From IMG/VR virus record IMGVR_UViG_3300042463_000165, positions 1 through 40,651 of that record: a stretch of 40,651 nt of DNA; one strand, written 5' to 3'. The DNA is from a virus. The notes beneath the pieces are model-generated. The model worked only from the letters and a program-made list of their open reading frames with translations, was not told where the DNA came from and made no database searches. A program made the position numbers and the translations under genes. Of the stretch, positions 15,006-27,298 are shown in pieces. Each line of letters begins with the position of its first letter. Position 1 is the first letter of the stretch.

Positions 15006-15513
15006 TGTAGTCCTTCGCCTCAGGGAACGTGTTATCTAAAATCATAACACCAATAACCCCATAGTTGGCGATGTCCACAAACGTATCCCTAAGGGACTCA
15101 TTCTCTGGCTTAGCCCCTGATTCTATAAGGTTAATCAGCCGTGACATCTTGTCGTATAGCCGTACCTGTAGACCGTTAAGCGCACCACCTGGCGCATTGC
15201 GGATGTTGTTAGGACCATAATCATTCTGCTTCTTGATTAGGATATCCCACAGTTCTTCATACACATCAAGGGAATCTAACTCAAAGTCATCAGGGTATAG
15301 GTCATCCCATGCGGTAAAGGTGACACACGCTTCGCATATGCAGTCATCGTCTACCGCAAAGGCATCCTTGTTATCTCCAATGTTAAGGTCTCCCTTGACT
15401 CTGTTAAGCCAACTCTGGAAATCTTTAAGCCCATCTCCGAAAGCCTCCCAATCAGAAACGTTATCTCTTCCTGACTGAACGTAGTCATCCCACTCATCCT
15501 TCATATGGCTCAT
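14995..15513 (-). CDS. MazG-like / DUF1599-type nucleotide-associated protein
   Basis: A 172-residue protein. The C-terminal half carries the signature ELWDILIKKQNDYG ... LYDKMSRLINLIES ... ESLRDTFVDIANYGVIG, matching the DUF1599 (nucleotide modification associated domain 1) and MazG-like helical families. These are linked to nucleotide hydrolysis or modified-base metabolism. The N-terminal about 75 residues are acidic and contain CICEAC, a possible metal site. It lies between primase and phosphoesterase genes with short overlaps on both sides, consistent with a nucleotide-pool role. Confidence 0.7.
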   Translation of the reverse strand: MSHMKDEWDDYVQSGRDNVSDWEAFGDGLKDFQSWLNRVKGDLNIGDNKDAFAVDDDCICEACVTFTAWDDLYPDDFELDSLDVYEELWDILIKKQNDYGPNNIRNAPGGALNGLQVRLYDKMSRLINLIESGAKPENESLRDTFVDIANYGVIGVMILDNTFPEAKDYNES

Positions 15514-16127
15514 GCTGACACCTTGCTCCTTAGATAGTCGTACCCTTGTGATAGGTACATTGAATTAACATCTTCACCTTCTGGCATCTGCAATGTTACT
15601 ACTGATGAGAGTTCTTTGGCGAGGTTCTTTGCGAAGTCCGACCCTGGTTGGTCACCGTCAGCAAAAACATAGACCGTCTCAAAGTCTTGGAGGATGCGTG
15701 AGTAATGTTTCTTCCACGAGTTCGCACCAGGTACACCCACAGCAGGGATACCACACTTGTAATGCAAAGTAATTGCATCAATCTCACCCTCACATACCGC
15801 AATGAAATCTCCTGCTGATTGTAGTGCTGTTACATTGTATAGACGGGTAGAAGTCCCTGGTAAACCCATGTATTTGGGTTCACTGTTGTCCATGCTACGG
15901 AACCTAATGTCAACCACACCTGTTGGTGTGATGTACGGAATAACCAAGCGACCAACGTATGCCTCGTGACTAGGTAGAGGTTCTGCGACTACTCCGAGGT
16001 GGGCTGTAGCCCCGTCTTCTAGAGATAATCCCCTCTTGGCTAGATACCCTTCGGCTAGATGAATGTTTGCCTTGTATGTTGCCACGGCTTTCGCCAGTGA
16101 TTGTTTCTGCGATTGTGATAGCCTCAC
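15510..16127 (-). CDS. DNA primase, Toprim half
   Basis: A 205-residue protein from GTG 16127. Residues 25-80 (YLAKRGLSLEDGATAHLG, GRLVIPYITPTGVVDIRFR) match the primase core N-terminal region. The Toprim catalytic motifs follow: CEGEIDAIT at 112-120 and FADGDQPG at 155-162. The zinc-binding half is in the next frame (15970-16344), with a 158-base overlap. It is either made separately from the internal GTG or joined by +1 frameshifting. Primase makes RNA primers for the lagging strand. Confidence 0.85.
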   Translation of the reverse strand: MRLSQSQKQSLAKAVATYKANIHLAEGYLAKRGLSLEDGATAHLGVVAEPLPSHEAYVGRLVIPYITPTGVVDIRFRSMDNSEPKYMGLPGTSTRLYNVTALQSAGDFIAVCEGEIDAITLHYKCGIPAVGVPGANSWKKHYSRILQDFETVYVFADGDQPGSDFAKNLAKELSSVVTLQMPEGEDVNSMYLSQGYDYLRSKVSA

Positions 16128-16344
16128 GAAATCCCACTCCTTCTTTCTCCATAATTATTTTATAGGTGTCACCCTTAACTCCGCAAGCATGACATGCAAA
16201 TATGTTTTCTGTTACGTTGACACTAGCAGATGCAGTTGAATCCTCGTGAACCACGCATCTAATCTTTTGCCAGCCCCATGTTTCACGTATATTCGTTGCA
16301 CCGTAGTGCTCAAGCACAGGTTGTATGCTGTGCTTAGTAGTCAT
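15970..16344 (-). CDS. DNA primase, zinc-binding half
   Basis: A 124-residue frame with the CHC2 zinc finger at C30, H33, C51 and C54 (RCVVHED and ACHACGVKG). It is followed by YKIIMEKEGVGFREAITIAE, the usual end of the primase zinc domain. After about residue 90 the sequence turns into low-complexity Ser/Arg (SSSRRVSS, RRRGYSPPRSSRR). That tail looks like an out-of-frame reading of the Toprim half rather than selected protein. The full product is probably made by a frame change in the overlap, but a free zinc domain is also possible. Confidence 0.8.
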   Translation of the reverse strand: MTTKHSIQPVLEHYGATNIRETWGWQKIRCVVHEDSTASASVNVTENIFACHACGVKGDTYKIIMEKEGVGFREAITIAETITGESRGNIQGKHSSSRRVSSQEGIISRRRGYSPPRSSRRTST

Positions 16345-16588
16345 CGTTGTAGTACACGCCCTTTGCTAACTCAACAAGTGCCTTTAAGTATGCTTCTTCT
16401 TTGGCTTTGTTAATCTTTGCTAACTCCACGGCAGTGCGATAATCTCTTTCCGCCTCTGCTTTGTACTGTTGCACTTTATTGAGCAATACGCTTTGATTAC
16501 TTGTGGTTAGGTACTGCACTTGTTCAGGTGTTTGAGCCAATTCAAGTAACTGTTTACATATCTCTTCTTCTTTAACCAATTCATCCAT
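16334..16588 (-). CDS. 84-residue coiled-coil hypothetical protein
   Basis: A mostly helical, charged protein (MDELVKEEEICKQLLELA, VQQYKAEAERDYRTAVELAK, NKAKEEAYLKALVELAKG) with heptad-like hydrophobic spacing. It sits between the resolvase and primase genes and overlaps the primase start by 11 bases. No family is recognised. It could be a small replisome adaptor, which is only a guess from position. Confidence 0.65.
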   Translation of the reverse strand: MDELVKEEEICKQLLELAQTPEQVQYLTTSNQSVLLNKVQQYKAEAERDYRTAVELAKINKAKEEAYLKALVELAKGVYYNDDY

Positions 16589-16923
16589 TAGTATCCTGCT
16601 TCCTCCAGTAGTTTAAACCACTCAGACACTGGCATAGTAGCGTACCACTTGCCAACGTCTAGTGTTCCTGTCTTCTTGTGTATAACAACGCCAGTCTCAG
16701 CCTTGTCATTAGCCATCTCCACCTCAAGTTCCTTGAGCCATGCAGATAACTTCATCTCTTTGTGATTCTTAACCTCTATAACAACGGCAGGTAAACCAGC
16801 GATATCACCACGGTCATTGACACCGTTGAGTGCACGTCTCTCAACGTGCTTACGTCCCTTGCTTACAAGCCAGTTAACAACAGCAGTCTCGGCAGATGTA
16901 CCCTTTATCTTACTTTTGTTCAT
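16588..16923 (-). CDS. Holliday-junction resolvase-like PD-(D/E)XK nuclease
   Basis: A 111-residue protein. The active-site pattern is E12 (GTSAETAVVNWL), D40 (NDRGDIAG) and E50-x-K52 (VVIEVKNH), followed by LSAWLKELEVEMANDKAETGVVIHKK. This is the small archaeal-type resolvase fold found in actinophages. It cuts branched DNA made during replication and recombination before packaging. The gene overlaps its neighbours by one to fourteen bases, so it belongs to the replication operon. Confidence 0.8.
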   Translation of the reverse strand: MNKSKIKGTSAETAVVNWLVSKGRKHVERRALNGVNDRGDIAGLPAVVIEVKNHKEMKLSAWLKELEVEMANDKAETGVVIHKKTGTLDVGKWYATMPVSEWFKLLEEAGY

Positions 16924-17188: not shown

Positions 17189-17676
17189 TGTTCCTCCTCT
17201 AAGTTCTTAATGAACACTACAAGTTCTTCCCATGGTATGCAATGTTCTATGTCAACAACGTAGAAGTTATCGTCATGCCCACGGTACTTGTCGTGCAGTT
17301 GCTTACCTACCCACTTGTCCTTTGTAGATGTGAGTAGTCCAAACATACCTTTAGTCTTGGTAGATACCATGACGTAGGCGTATGGCTTCTGCAACTTAGC
17401 CTCATACCCTGACACCGTATCAACTATGATGTTGCCCCAAGGGAAATCTTTTAGTTCAGTAAACTCTATGTTTCGTGACTTAACCTCAAGGCACTCACCT
17501 GAATCATCAAGGATGATGTCCTTCTCGGTGGCTGTCATCTCTGGTATCTCTTCACGTGACTGCACTATGTACAGGTCAGGCACGGTGCAACGTACACCGT
17601 TTAAACGTAAGCGTTCTGCAACTATGTCACCATACTTGTGACCTTCAGTCATAGATGCTACGTAATCAAATGTCAC
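17173..17676 (-). CDS. PD-(D/E)XK-type nuclease
   Basis: A 167-residue protein. I use the GTG at 17676, which overlaps the ATPase stop; a longer upstream frame would run through that gene. The catalytic pattern is D53 (EKDIILDD) and E64-x-K66 (CLEVKSRN), typical of restriction-endonuclease-fold nucleases. The N-terminus GHKYGDIVAERLRLNG and later GYEAKLQKPYAYVMVS also suit this fold. It lies between the DnaB-like ATPase and the resolvase. It may help degrade host DNA or process phage DNA; the target is unknown. Confidence 0.65.
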   Translation of the reverse strand: MTFDYVASMTEGHKYGDIVAERLRLNGVRCTVPDLYIVQSREEIPEMTATEKDIILDDSGECLEVKSRNIEFTELKDFPWGNIIVDTVSGYEAKLQKPYAYVMVSTKTKGMFGLLTSTKDKWVGKQLHDKYRGHDDNFYVVDIEHCIPWEELVVFIKNLEEEQWWNG

Positions 17677-18455
17677 CGAGCATCCTCTAAGTCTGCAATG
17701 AACATATATTCTGGCAAGAACTGCAACCACACTGGGCTATTACCCGAAGGGTCAGCCTTACCATAACGGTTCTTGACACTGGCAACACCAAGCATTCCGT
17801 CTTGTTGTCCCACCGTAAGAATGAGGGCTGGTAGTTGGTTAACCATACCTTGGACTGCTGACCTAGGTTGACATGGCGTACCAGAATATCCTTCTTTAGT
17901 GTGATGCAGTACCACAACAGCGGCGTTCGTATCACGTGCCAGATACTTAAGTTCCTTGAGCGCACTACGCATAGCACCAAACTCTTCACCACCATCCATG
18001 TTAATGTCCATCAAGTTGTCAACAACTATCAGTGCTGGGCTATCGCCCAACGTTTCTTCAAGGGCTGTAACCTCATCATCTAAGTCGTTTAAACTAGGTG
18101 ATGAATCAAATGACCAGTAAATGTGTCGTGCTTGTGCCAACTTTTCCCTAGCCAAGTCAGGTTGCTCTGAGATAATCTTCTCTGCATCTGTCTGTGACAC
18201 ACCCTCAATCATGGAATACAAACGCATTGCCATGGTGTGAGCATTGGTATCTGCTGATACGTACAGTGTTGGTGCTTGCATACGCAAGGCTAGTGCTAGG
18301 GCAAGTGTTGACTTACCTGCACCTGGTGTGCCAGCAATTAACGATACCTCTGAACGTCTAAAGATAATCTTATTCTGTTCAAACGTACGAAAGACTGACG
18401 GCATTGGTTCGCCACCAATGTCTGAACGTCCTACGGACCTGCTTAATGTTTTCAT
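17673..18455 (-). CDS. DnaB-type / RecA-fold replicative ATPase
   Basis: A 260-residue protein with a Walker A motif AGTPGAGKST at residues 41-50, a Walker B ALIVVDNL at 141-148 and VVVLHHTKEG near 181, the usual order in DnaB/RepA-like ATPases. There is no N-terminal primase-binding domain, so it is shorter than DnaB (about 450 residues). It is most likely the phage replicative helicase or a helicase loader. A strong AAGGAGGAACA site precedes ATG 18455. The stop overlaps the next gene's GTG. Confidence 0.85.
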   Translation of the reverse strand: MKTLSRSVGRSDIGGEPMPSVFRTFEQNKIIFRRSEVSLIAGTPGAGKSTLALALALRMQAPTLYVSADTNAHTMAMRLYSMIEGVSQTDAEKIISEQPDLAREKLAQARHIYWSFDSSPSLNDLDDEVTALEETLGDSPALIVVDNLMDINMDGGEEFGAMRSALKELKYLARDTNAAVVVLHHTKEGYSGTPCQPRSAVQGMVNQLPALILTVGQQDGMLGVASVKNRYGKADPSGNSPVWLQFLPEYMFIADLEDAR

Positions 18456-18595: not shown

Positions 18596-19042
18596 CTAGA
18601 AACTGTTCCACTCTGGTGTGTTGCGGTTAGCAAATGTTGGGGAGCACTGGTCTGCTGTACCCTTAGGTGTTGGGCAGAAGAATGCACGCCATTCTCCCTT
18701 AGCACCGTTGCCTGTTCGCTTAACCATTGCACCGTGAATGCACATCTTGTCGCTACCTGCTGGTGCAGATACTGCTACTGGTGGTGCTTTAGGTGCAAAT
18801 GCTGGTACTTCCGCAACAACTTCGCCACCTAGGGATGCCTGAACAATAGCCACTGGGTCAGTTGCTAGTACACGTGGTGTTGATACACCAGTGAATGCTT
18901 CTTCCAGTGTGCTGATTGCATCAGGTCCACCCTGTGCTACCAAGTCATTGACGTTAGCGATTAACTCTTCGGCGCTGTCACCACGTGCTGTGATGATTGT
19001 GCCCTTGCTTGTCTTTACGTTTACAACGTAGTTCTTTTCCAT
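18596..19042 (-). CDS. 148-residue protein with C-terminal zinc-like motif
   Basis: The N-terminal third is a small alpha/beta segment (NYVVNVKTSKGTIITARG, EELIANVNDLVAQ). A Pro/Ala linker follows (VPAFAPKAPPVAVSAPAG). The C-terminus has MCIHGAMVKRTGNG, FFCPTPKGTADQCSP, giving Cys-x-His and two more Cys residues that could bind zinc. This C-terminal pattern is common beside Cas4-like genes in actinophages. It may bind DNA, perhaps single strands, but that is unproven. The start overlaps the nuclease stop. Confidence 0.65.
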   Translation of the reverse strand: MEKNYVVNVKTSKGTIITARGDSAEELIANVNDLVAQGGPDAISTLEEAFTGVSTPRVLATDPVAIVQASLGGEVVAEVPAFAPKAPPVAVSAPAGSDKMCIHGAMVKRTGNGAKGEWRAFFCPTPKGTADQCSPTFANRNTPEWNSF

Positions 19043-19710
19043 TACTTATCTCCATTCTGATACTTACAATCGTTACTAAAATTACACATCTTGCAGTGGT
19101 CAAAGTTAGGTATAAAGATACCAGCCCTCCGAGCCTTGTCAAACATTCCTACAATCTCTGACACCGTTTCACGTGTCCACTTATCTAGGTTGATTAACTC
19201 TGATGTTGTTCCCTTACGTGCATCCCAGTATAGCCCATACTTGGGACGGACACCGAACACTTCCTCCATGGCTACCGCATAGATACCCAACTGAAAGTCT
19301 GATGAAGGCATACGTGCACCAGACTTAATGTCTAGTACCACAAGGCTACCGTCAGGTAGCACCATCATGCGGTCAAGTGCACCCTTAACCATGACATCAT
19401 CAAGGTTAATGTTGAACACCAATTCAATGGCAGGTACACCTTGAGGTGTGACCCATAGTTCTAGGTTGTGTTCCGCATTGCGGAAGTTAACCCAGTTGTT
19501 CACCATGTTTAAACCGTTTGACTTCCACCAGTCCCCGTCTTCCTTGTTGGGATTGGCTATGGTTGCACGTCCACCAGCACGCCACTGTGATGTGTCTTCC
19601 TGCCCCTGTACGGCACGCTGACGGGTTAAGTTATCTTCCCAGTACTGTAACCACAACTCCTCAGGCGTAGCCTGTGTGAGGGTTAGTTCCTCTTGTTTCA
19701 TCTTAGCCAT
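19042..19710 (-). CDS. Cas4/RecB-like nuclease, C-terminal half
   Basis: A 222-residue protein with the nuclease core: D113 (GALDRMMVLPDG), D127-x-K129 (VVLDIKSG) and Q140 (DFQLGIYAVAM). Near the end are three cysteines C206, C209 and C215 (HCKMCNFSNDCKY). Cas4-family enzymes bind a 4Fe-4S cluster using one N-terminal and three C-terminal cysteines. Here the matching N-terminal part is a separate ORF at 19918-20121. There are no cas genes, so this is a phage recombination exonuclease rather than a CRISPR component. Confidence 0.85.
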   Translation of the reverse strand: MAKMKQEELTLTQATPEELWLQYWEDNLTRQRAVQGQEDTSQWRAGGRATIANPNKEDGDWWKSNGLNMVNNWVNFRNAEHNLELWVTPQGVPAIELVFNINLDDVMVKGALDRMMVLPDGSLVVLDIKSGARMPSSDFQLGIYAVAMEEVFGVRPKYGLYWDARKGTTSELINLDKWTRETVSEIVGMFDKARRAGIFIPNFDHCKMCNFSNDCKYQNGDK

Positions 19711-23279: not shown

Positions 23280-23315
23280 TGTCAAGGCTATTTGGTATCC
23301 GTTATCTAATCGTTA
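23280..23315 (-). promoter_or_regulatory. Recurring cis-element copy D (before zinc-ribbon gene)
   Basis: On the minus strand TAACGATTAGATAACGG (23315-23299) is followed after 13 bases by TTGACA (23285-23280). The same arrangement occurs at 24797-24832, identical in 16 of 17 bases of the first box. The box 17 bases downstream of TTGACA (TTAACT) is a weak -10. It lies in the only non-coding gap (23224-23318) of this stretch. Confidence 0.55.
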
Positions 23316-23318
23316 TAA

Positions 23319-24742: not shown

Positions 24743-24948
24743 CTGTTATCTAATTTCATAATGTGGAACTGTGGCTAATGCACACCTTCAAGCCAATGTC
24801 AAGGCGACACGCCGTCCGTTATCAAATCGTTACCAATTAAATTGTGCGCCCCGAATTGGTGGGGGGAGAAGGTAGGGAGATAGTCCACCCGTCCAAACGT
24901 GTTGACATTACTTGTCAAGTCCGACACGCCGTTGTTATGGAATTGTTA
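24743..24948 (-). promoter_or_regulatory. Cluster of recurring cis-elements A, B and C
   Basis: Minus-strand boxes related to TAACGATTNGATAACGG occur at 24929-24948 (A, TAACAATTCCATAACAACGG), 24816-24832 (B, TAACGATTTGATAACGG) and 24743-24759 (C, weaker). Each is followed by TTGACA at 24918-24913, 24802-24797 and 24708-24703. A 9-base CGACACGCC lies between box and TTGACA in A and B. Copies B and A have no good -10, so these are more likely operators or activator sites than three full promoters. Confidence 0.5.
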
Positions 24949-24992
24949 TAAAGTATTTTCACCCCCCGTAGGGGGTAGGGGTTGGATACAAT

Positions 24993-25035
24993 TCATCCAC
25001 AACCTTATCCACACCTGTGGATAACCTGTGGAAAA
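24993..25035. other. DnaA-box cluster, probable replication origin
   Basis: TTATCCACA (25005-25013) and its exact inverted copy TGTGGATAA (25016-25024) match the DnaA-box consensus perfectly. TCATCCACA (24993-25001) and TGTGGAAAA (25027-25035) match eight of nine. They lie in the divergent control region, beside A+T-rich DNA (25080-25180), as bacterial origins do. The phage has no polymerase gene in the window, which fits a host-DnaA-dependent start. Function is inferred. Confidence 0.7.
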
Positions 25036-25164
25036 CCTATGACCCCCAGTTGTTAAGGGGTCGGACGCTGTATGTATATGACTCCCATCAAATATTTTTT
25101 CCAGTATTTTGTAATTAGGCACACAATTAAAACCCATTAGATAAAGGACTTTAAAAATAGTTTA

Positions 25165-25230
25165 TAACAATTTGGTAACGAAACGTTACAGTCCCTTTGT
25201 AACAGGGTTAGTATATATGTAGGATAAAAT
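25165..25230 (+). promoter_or_regulatory. Candidate rightward promoter with palindromic operator
   Basis: A forward copy of the cis-box (TAACAATTTGGTAACG, 25165-25180) abuts a palindrome GTAACG-AAA-CGTTAC (25175-25189), then another GTAAC at 25199-25203. TTGTAA (25197-25202) and TAGGAT (25220-25225) are 17 bases apart. A TAAAAT at 25225-25230 is a better -10 match but has no -35. The element would drive the structural operon. Confidence 0.45.
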
Positions 25231-25237
25231 AACATAA

Positions 25238-25339
25238 GTGCGCTTTGCGCACACAACCTAATGGCAGCCTTTTGTGGCTGCCTTTAACAACCTAAAGCAG
25301 CCCTTTGGGGGCTGCTATTATGAGCGCCTTTCGGCGCTC
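25238..25339 (+). promoter_or_regulatory. Array of four hairpins in the structural-operon leader
   Basis: Four consecutive perfect stems: GTGCGC/GCGCAC (25238-25252), GGCAGCC/GGCTGCC (25263-25282), AGCAGCCC/GGGCTGCT (25296-25316) and GAGCGCC/GGCGCTC (25322-25339). Loops are 3 to 6 bases and T-rich. They lie between the probable promoter and the terminase start at 25412. No T run follows any stem, so transcript protection, attenuation or protein binding is more likely than termination. Confidence 0.75.
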
Positions 25340-25411
25340 TTATATTAAGTTCTTTATATCATTTTATTTGAACTTGATATTAGGTGAATGCTTTAGATAG
25401 GATAACTTCAT

Positions 25412-27298
25412 ATGGCAGCCAAAGGCGGTGCAGAGCACCATAATGTGGTACGCCTCAGAGAAGATAAGTCCAAAGTTATAGCCCATGTAGAAACTGGCAT
25501 TGAGGTGCGAGCCGCTATTGCTATGGTGGGGCGCAAGCCCGATGTTCTAAAAAAGTGGCTCACAGACCCTATGTTTGCCAAAAACCTAGAGATAGCCCGA
25601 ACTGCTGGCTCAGACCTAATGAAGGTCACGCTAGGCAGCGAGAACGGCAAGAACATAGACTTTGCCACATTCTCCAAAGAGTTCTTAGGTAACGAAGTAT
25701 TCCCTCACCAGCAGGACTGGATTGACGTTCTGGAGGGAAGGGAGCCTAGTTGGCTCCATCCAGCCATGTCCTATGAAAAGGGCAACAAGAACCGTATCTT
25801 AATTAATGTGCCACCTGAGCACGCAAAATCCACCGTAATCACCGTAGGCTATAGCACCTATCGTATTGCTATGGATTCCAACGTGCGTATCATTGTGGTG
25901 TCCAAGACTTTAAATAAAGCCCGTGAGTTCGTCTACTCCATCAAGCAGCGACTTAGCCATCCACGCTATGCCAAGTTGCAGCAGGTCTATGGACCTTCTG
26001 GTGGTTGGAAAGAAGACTCTGACACCTGGAAAACCGATACGGTCTACCTAGGTCAAGAAGCCCGTGACTCATCCGAAAAGGACCCTACGCTTCAGGCGCT
26101 AGGTATTGGTGGTCAGATTTACGGTGCTCGTGCTGACCTCATCATCCTTGATGACGTTATCACTACTGCCAACGCCCACGAGTGGGAGAAGCAGTTAGAG
26201 TGGCTCCAGAAGGAAGTAATCACCCGTCTGGGTAAGAACGGCAAGTTGCTCATTGTAGGCACTCGTATCGGGGCTGTAGATTTATACCGAGAACTTAGAA
26301 ACCCAGAACACTGGTCTGGTGGTGTCAGCCCGTTTACACGTCTGGCTATGCCAGCCGCACTTGAGATTGACGATGACCCAAATAAATGGGTTACCCTCTG
26401 GGAGCGCTCAGACCGTCCTTGGGATGGCGATGATGACGCTGTGCCAGATGAAGATGGTTACTACCAGAAGTGGGATGGACCAGCACTCTTTGCAAGACGT
26501 AGCGAGGTAACAGCCTCAACATGGGCTTTAGTTTACCAGCAACAGGACATAGACGATGACGCAATTTTTAATCCAACGATTGTTAACGCCTGTGTTAACC
26601 GTATGCGTAAGCCTGGTCCTCTCCGCATGGGAGCGCCTGGACATCCACGGGACGGACAATGGGTCACGCTAATTGGCATGGACCCTGCTATGGCAGGAAA
26701 GACTGCTCTAGTTGTCTACGCTGTAGACCGTCAGTCTGGTAAGCGTCTAGTCCTAGATGCTTACAATATGTCAGACCCAACACCTGGCAAGATTCGTGCA
26801 ATCATTGAAGACTGGATTAACACCTACCGCCCAGTAGAACTGCGTATTGAAATCAACGCCCACCAGAAGATGTACGAGGTGGACGAAGAGTTCCGCCAGT
26901 ATCTGGCTAACAAGGGCGTAAGGTTCTCCAGTCACTTCACTGGTAAGAACAAGTGGGACACTGACTTCGGTGTGGCTGCTATGCAGGGCTTGTTTGGCAC
27001 TATGACAAACGCCAAGCACAACCGAGATAACCTTATTGAACTACCAGACCCTCAATACCACGAGGGTATCAAGGCTCTAATCAATCAGTTGATTACTTGG
27101 AAGCCTGGAACTCGTAACCCTACAGACGTTGTAATGGCTCTGTGGTTCTGCGAGATTAAAGCCAAGGAAATGATTCAGCACTCTGGGAATCAAATCTGGC
27201 ACGCAACTAGCCGCTTTGTTACTCAACGACAGATGGCAAAACAAGCAGTTGTTAATCTTGACGATTTAGCAATGGAACAATTTACAACTTATCTTTAA
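25412..27298 (+). CDS. Terminase large subunit
   Basis: A 628-residue packaging motor. Walker A-like NVPPEHAKST lies at about residues 132-141 and Walker B LIILDDV at 243-249 with a following acidic pair. The C-terminal nuclease starts at GMDPAMAGKTALVV near residue 422 and has further acidic residues. The N-terminal 90 residues (KPDVLKKWLTDPMFAKNLE) look like a DNA-binding helix-turn-helix, so a separate small subunit may not be needed. It pumps DNA into the prohead. The ribosome-binding site is weak; a downstream start is not excluded. Confidence 0.9.
   Translation: MAAKGGAEHHNVVRLREDKSKVIAHVETGIEVRAAIAMVGRKPDVLKKWLTDPMFAKNLEIARTAGSDLMKVTLGSENGKNIDFATFSKEFLGNEVFPHQQDWIDVLEGREPSWLHPAMSYEKGNKNRILINVPPEHAKSTVITVGYSTYRIAMDSNVRIIVVSKTLNKAREFVYSIKQRLSHPRYAKLQQVYGPSGGWKEDSDTWKTDTVYLGQEARDSSEKDPTLQALGIGGQIYGARADLIILDDVITTANAHEWEKQLEWLQKEVITRLGKNGKLLIVGTRIGAVDLYRELRNPEHWSGGVSPFTRLAMPAALEIDDDPNKWVTLWERSDRPWDGDDDAVPDEDGYYQKWDGPALFARRSEVTASTWALVYQQQDIDDDAIFNPTIVNACVNRMRKPGPLRMGAPGHPRDGQWVTLIGMDPAMAGKTALVVYAVDRQSGKRLVLDAYNMSDPTPGKIRAIIEDWINTYRPVELRIEINAHQKMYEVDEEFRQYLANKGVRFSSHFTGKNKWDTDFGVAAMQGLFGTMTNAKHNRDNLIELPDPQYHEGIKALINQLITWKPGTRNPTDVVMALWFCEIKAKEMIQHSGNQIWHATSRFVTQRQMAKQAVVNLDDLAMEQFTTYL

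Follow-up and report, generated by a model that had tools for sequence, protein, structure and literature searches.

A phased array of DnaA boxes near a predicted genome end of an actinophage and its possible part in starting phage DNA synthesis

The control region and the genes around it

The stretch of viral DNA analysed here in full (40,651 bp, hereafter the window) has a non-coding region between its leftward genes (13.5-24.7 kb, early) and its rightward genes (from 25.4 kb, terL first), and in this region lies a compact DnaA-box array. It consists of a DnaA-box-like site with one mismatch (TCATCCACA, 24993-25001, plus strand), two perfect boxes (TTATCCACA, 25005-25013 on the plus strand and 25016-25024 on the minus strand) and a fourth box with one mismatch (TTTTCCACA, 25027-25035, minus strand), so that the layout reads ++-- with start-to-start distances of 12, 11 and 11 bp. 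The two perfect boxes, inverted and with 2 bases between them, are the only ones in 40,651 bp, where 0.45 would be expected. Four is also the highest number of boxes with at most one mismatch in any 43 bp of the window; dinucleotide shuffles of the window gave three at most (one shuffle in 1000), and shuffles restricted to the intergenic region gave two at most (5000 shuffles). The cluster, in other words, exceeds chance, and the preliminary description of four boxes in 43 bases, two perfect and inverted and two near matches, was confirmed by motif scan and shuffles alike.

The sequence to the right of the boxes resembles the ends of other phage genomes. GACCCCCAGTTGTTAA follows the boxes immediately. 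The conserved terminus element here (GACCCCCAGTTGTTAAGGGGTC...TATATG, 25041-25080, plus strand) has GACTCCC 39 nt downstream of the first base of GACC. The records of three Streptomyces phages, Manuel, Immanuel3 and WRightOn, hold terminal repeats that are exact over 276, 275 and 264 bp, respectively. All three repeats end in this element; GAGTCCC again stands at 39 nt, its G being followed by the edge of the repeat. The GACC...39 nt...GASTCCC spacing is therefore identical in the window and in all three phages. Based on this homology to mapped repeats, which is a new observation as far as the element right of the boxes is concerned, the direct terminal repeat of the window is predicted to end at 25080/25081, with the boxes 46-88 bp inside, and we think it probable that the boxes do sit within the terminal repeat of this phage. 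Right at the predicted terminus begins a segment of 73% A+T (25081-25180), a candidate unwinding region; such an element adjoining the boxes is what an origin would be expected to have, but it is also conserved in box-less relatives. No DnaA-trio was spotted beside the boxes on inspection by eye. The clean 39.5-kb circle of the preliminary description was not borne out, as the contig ends (1-1165 and 39487-40651) overlap by 1165 bp at just 89.8% identity, with the mismatches concentrated between 100 and 900; from their sequence, the overlapping ends are two strain variants.

The large terminase subunit (25412-27298, plus strand) is homologous to annotated terminases, and its matches include the cultured Planktophila phages E7 and F5 (54%) and the Streptomyces Beephvirinae (about 42%), which identifies the virus, by homology, as an actinophage related to both groups. 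Since E7 and F5 are reported to infect 'Ca. Nanopelagicales' (PMC10202952), the host is likely a freshwater actinobacterium, of a kind abundant in lakes. On the minus strand the phage encodes a DnaB-like, RepA-type hexameric helicase of 260 aa without the N-terminal domain (17673-18455; phrog_243 at 6.8e-77, AAA_25, DnaB_C), a primase zinc-finger part (CHC2; 15970-16344; phrog_360, PF01807), a primase TOPRIM part (15510-16127; phrog_849, PF13155), a RusA-like Holliday junction resolvase (16588-16923; phrog_244) and a PD-(D/E)XK exonuclease (19042-19710; phrog_1870, PF12705); the primase, DnaB-type ATPase, resolvase and nuclease genes reported earlier are thus confirmed by family matches. The two primase reading frames overlap by 158 nt in different frames, which may reflect a frameshift or a true split; the records of Manuel, Immanuel3 and WRightOn annotate a similarly overlapping pair. 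A WhiB protein and a sigma factor are also encoded. The absence of a DNA polymerase gene held as well: no PolA or PolIII-alpha homologue was found in the window, in full-length and partial relatives, or in the isolates E7 and Manuel, and none of the larger leftover reading frames of the window looked like a family-B polymerase by its matches, the proteins of 1802 and 662 aa matching phage families of unknown function. No initiator was recognised in the window, in its full-length relatives or in the isolates E7 and Manuel, and no helicase loader among the genes of the window.

The control region holds further repeats. The pattern GTTAY-N6-GTTAY occurs four times in the window, always in non-coding DNA and flanking the boxes: GTTATCAAATCGTTAC (24818-24833, plus strand) and GTTATGGAATTGTTAT (24934-24949, plus strand), GTTACCAAATTGTTAT (25164-25179, minus strand), the copy most widely conserved in relatives, and GTTATCTAATCGTTAT (23301-23316, plus strand), in a gap between early genes. 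These direct repeats match the consensus of the Streptomyces response regulator MtrA, quoted as GtnAcC-n5-GTnAcn in PMC13189361. In 25 of 27 relatives the last 1 kb before terL contains the pattern, mostly by shared descent, so that these do not count as 25 independent events; it overlaps tandem DnaA boxes in a few of them, and is missing from 163 kb of other relative sequence. Two conserved, non-coding GTnAC half-sites 11 bp apart are what an MtrA-type promoter region would be expected to show, and the control region has them. Downstream, the presumed terL leader carries strong tandem G+C-rich hairpins (25236-25343, plus strand), and relatives have similar hairpins that differ in sequence but keep the same layout; Rfam has no match for them, and the window as a whole gave no Rfam or tRNA hit.

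Turnover of the array among relatives

A TerL search matched 498 viral stretches, the best 80 of which were used, and sequences at 79% TerL identity or more, the window counted in, form a close-relative set of 32. Conservation of the boxes, proposed earlier as a check, was found in part: at least three boxes at the same 11-bp pitch are present in 18 of the 32, but roughly one close relative in three is box-less. In most of the box-bearing close relatives the array lies 0.4-0.8 kb upstream of terL, next to an upstream flank that is highly variable. Single boxes drift solely to DnaA-type variants (TTATACACA, TTGTCCACA, TTTTCCACA, TTATCAACA and similar); the slot of the first box is taken by TTGTCCACA, TTATACACA, TTATCAACA or others, box 3 is the best conserved of the four, box 4 is TTATCCACA in several relatives, and two relatives (L006 and L008) keep a tandem box pair.

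Eleven of the 32 have no box or one, two of these being too short upstream to judge, and nearly all the others carry TAGTTGAA/TTCAACTA palindromes at the position of the array. Such palindromic arrays upstream of terL were seen in L005, L022, L024, L026, L034, L037, L039 and L044, and no extra phage gene goes with them in the box-less relatives. A perfect parS core, GTTTCACGTGAAAC, lies in the control region of four box-less close relatives (L005:9118-9131, L022:9474-9487, L029:70-83 and L039:8006-8019); no ParB gene was found in these phages, on which the core is, judged by sequence, an orphan host centromere site. From these comparisons the array appears to be one interchangeable option, in whose place sister phages use TTCAACTA palindromes. 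Box-bearing and box-less states alternate along the TerL tree, the replication genes are the same in close relatives of either kind, and boxes are not retained wherever the replication module occurs. A swapped-in initiator gene in the box-less relatives was considered and rejected, as gene comparison found none. Farther away, none of the sampled relatives at about 60% TerL identity has boxes in this region, nor do the isolates E7 and F5; arrays upstream of terL reappear in L088 (8 boxes, TerL 47%) and L152 (4 boxes, TerL 43%). This scatter over close and distant relatives suggests that the array was repeatedly gained or lost.

The turning point of GC skew that had been anticipated at the boxes does exist, but it is identical in box-less relatives. 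In full-length relatives, two with boxes and two without, and likewise in Manuel, the cumulative minimum falls within about 0.3-0.6 kb upstream of terL and coincides with the switch in gene direction, which confounds it. Because the minimum is the same with and without boxes, skew speaks neither for nor against an origin there, and we dropped it as evidence. Comparison with the host oriC was likewise abandoned: the TerL search yielded no Nanopelagicales genome, and a sample of 396 genomes of the phylum gave small low-GC genomes below the MtrA cut-off, whose dnaA regions are no reliable guide to the host.

DnaA-box arrays in other phages

Scans of viral contigs, which are samples rather than censuses, indicate that arrays of this kind are not peculiar to this phage group. 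Among the matches listed, DnaA-box pairs are most frequent at distances of 11-13, 21-22 and 32-33 bp; a reversed-motif control, by contrast, gave a codon-like 3-bp spacing. At least 100 loci pack four boxes or more into 250 bp. A regular-expression search found no DnaA signature at any of 100 array loci, and misfiled host oriC was rejected as their source. The array lies upstream of TerL in all ten loci with a recognisable TerL among the matches listed, not all of which are independent. Very large arrays of 12-17 boxes were noted in unrelated viral contigs (L083:656-902, L085:7869-8111, L086:7940-8152 and L154:1467-1703), the L085 phage also encoding PolIII alpha, and a tandem DnaA-box query also matches several Microviridae/gokushovirus and Lactococcus 949-type records, mostly at unannotated places.

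In three T7-like phages, Ship_A7, phiEap-1 and Kp7, exact direct terminal repeats (177, 195 and 238 bp) enclose 5-8 boxes at an 11/22-bp pitch; arrays of this size in exact terminal repeats of different T7-like genera span NC_048180.1 22-147, NC_028772.1 71-174 and ON148527.1 118-222. Each of the three phages has its own polymerase, and PolIII alpha is encoded by a 79-kb phage with 12 boxes. Arrays, then, do not simply mark phages that lack a polymerase, and Ship_A7, phiEap-1, Kp7 and the L085 phage rule out a missing polymerase as the general explanation for boxes. The T7-like arrays resemble that of the window, and the T5 stop signal (PMC13250531), in having boxes near or in terminal repeats with an 11/22-bp pitch, but they run in a single orientation in phages with their own polymerase, whereas the window array is ++-- in a phage with none. 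We found no description of DnaA arrays in the terminal repeats of T7-like phages or actinophages in the open-access literature.

Possible roles of the array

The array is real and selected, and in our judgement it is very probably bound by host DnaA. As to its role, our leading reading, which we hold tentatively, is that it assists DnaA-dependent initiation of phage DNA synthesis. Host DnaA would assemble on the ++-- boxes, which are in helical phase and lie in the non-coding stretch that separates the early from the late arm, and synthesis would start at the array, at the junction made by the joined ends; DnaA would melt the adjoining AT-rich segment and load a helicase, after which the phage helicase and primase and the host polymerase would take over. 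This is close to what the preliminary description proposed, an origin fired by host DnaA and copied by host polymerase III, and the evidence sustains it in some respects and weakens it in others. In its favor are the non-random cluster, the conserved register, the helical phasing of the box pairs sampled across the collection, the nearby AT-rich segment, and a gene set with helicase and primase but with no recognised initiator, loader, PolA or PolIII-alpha. Against it stand the close relatives that lack boxes and have the same replication genes, the box-less state of the sampled relatives at about 60% TerL identity and of E7 and F5, the skew minimum that does not depend on boxes, the arrays that polymerase-encoding phages carry in their terminal repeats, the terminal-repeat location itself (placed by homology), and the failure to see a DnaA-trio by eye. 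To name the cluster the origin is plausible, but the label is unproven because the cluster lies at the predicted DNA ends and its motif is swapped in sister viruses.

Bacterial oriC and the DnaA-box plasmid origins, such as P1 oriR and R1, have several boxes in helical register by an AT-rich segment. The phage array is like them in its phased boxes, in the adjoining AT-rich segment and in doing without a phage polymerase, but it has four boxes, no initiator gene or iterons were found beside it, and sister phages do without it. Manuel, Immanuel3 and WRightOn, which share the split primase, RusA, DnaB-like helicase, exonuclease and terminus element with the window phage, have terminal repeats that contain other repeats and lack a DnaA-box cluster; E7 and F5 (OX376640/1, PMC10202952) share the TerL (54%), the helicase (62%), WhiB, the sigma factor and the genome size, and they too differ from the window phage in having no cluster.

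Of the alternatives, the strongest, a serious rival although doubtful, is that host DnaA, probably together with MtrA, binds the control region and couples the timing of the divergent early and late promoters to the cell cycle of the host. The position between divergent transcription units agrees with this, as do the four MtrA-consensus repeats flanking the array, one of which near terL is shared by most relatives, and the parS core that replaces the boxes in some of them. There is moreover a precedent in some alphaproteobacterial phages, where sites for the regulator CtrA cluster in terminal repeats or gaps, as shown by EMSA and reporter assays (PMC9437464), so that timing by the cell cycle could be a rival or a companion role. 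The two cases are alike in that sites for a host cell-cycle regulator lie in a terminal repeat or gap and turn over among close relatives; they differ in that ours involves DnaA (with MtrA-like sites and parS) in an actinophage, with sites predicted from sequence. MtrA binding, however, is deduced from a consensus, the MtrA-like site stays while DnaA boxes come and go, and the CtrA study, for its own set of tested phages, saw no positional signal of DnaA sites.

It is unlikely, in our view, though again a serious rival, that the array serves instead as the short-repeat element of a terminal repeat, with host DnaA aiding concatemer processing, repeat duplication, end protection or DNA entry. 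The predicted repeat end 46 bp to the right of the array, at the spacing of the three Streptomyces phages, would fit such a function, and so would the arrays within the exact repeats of Ship_A7, phiEap-1 and Kp7, the position upstream of TerL in the ten loci listed, and the DnaA boxes reported in the injection stop signal of T5 (PMC13250531). On the other hand, 2.7 kb of DNA that contains genes separates the boxes of L088 from the terminus element, the terminal repeats of Beephvirinae have no DnaA boxes, and some of the ten loci are not independent. Comparably speculative is a wider proposal, according to which unlike phages would have incorporated host-DnaA arrays into their terminal repeats time and again, with DnaA starting synthesis at the joined ends (priming replication, duplicating the repeat, or both), and the array studied here would be one of several interchangeable sets of host cell-cycle sites (DnaA, ParB/parS, MtrA-like) at the genome end.

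A decoy that titrates host DnaA and so stops host initiation is very unlikely: phage DNA in many copies, each with two strong and two weaker boxes, could take up DnaA, but four sites per genome make a small sink, and the fixed 11-bp pitch, ++-- layout and fixed position exceed what a sink needs. Least credible of all is that the palindrome merely looks like DnaA boxes and is in truth a structural hairpin or the operator of some phage protein. It does have two perfect 9-bp arms, and as single-stranded DNA it folds weakly better than shuffles (z -1.7), but boxes change singly to DnaA-type variants while the partner arm shows no compensating change, and motif and pitch alike recur in unrelated phages.

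Should DnaA-assisted initiation prove to be the role of these arrays, phages without an initiator would commonly start replication by borrowing host DnaA at their own genome ends, and phage DNA synthesis would be coupled to the cell cycle of the host. That arrays go together with terminal repeats in unrelated phages, cultivable relatives of T7 among them, also opens an old gap to experiment, namely the role of the short repeats in T7-like terminal repeats.
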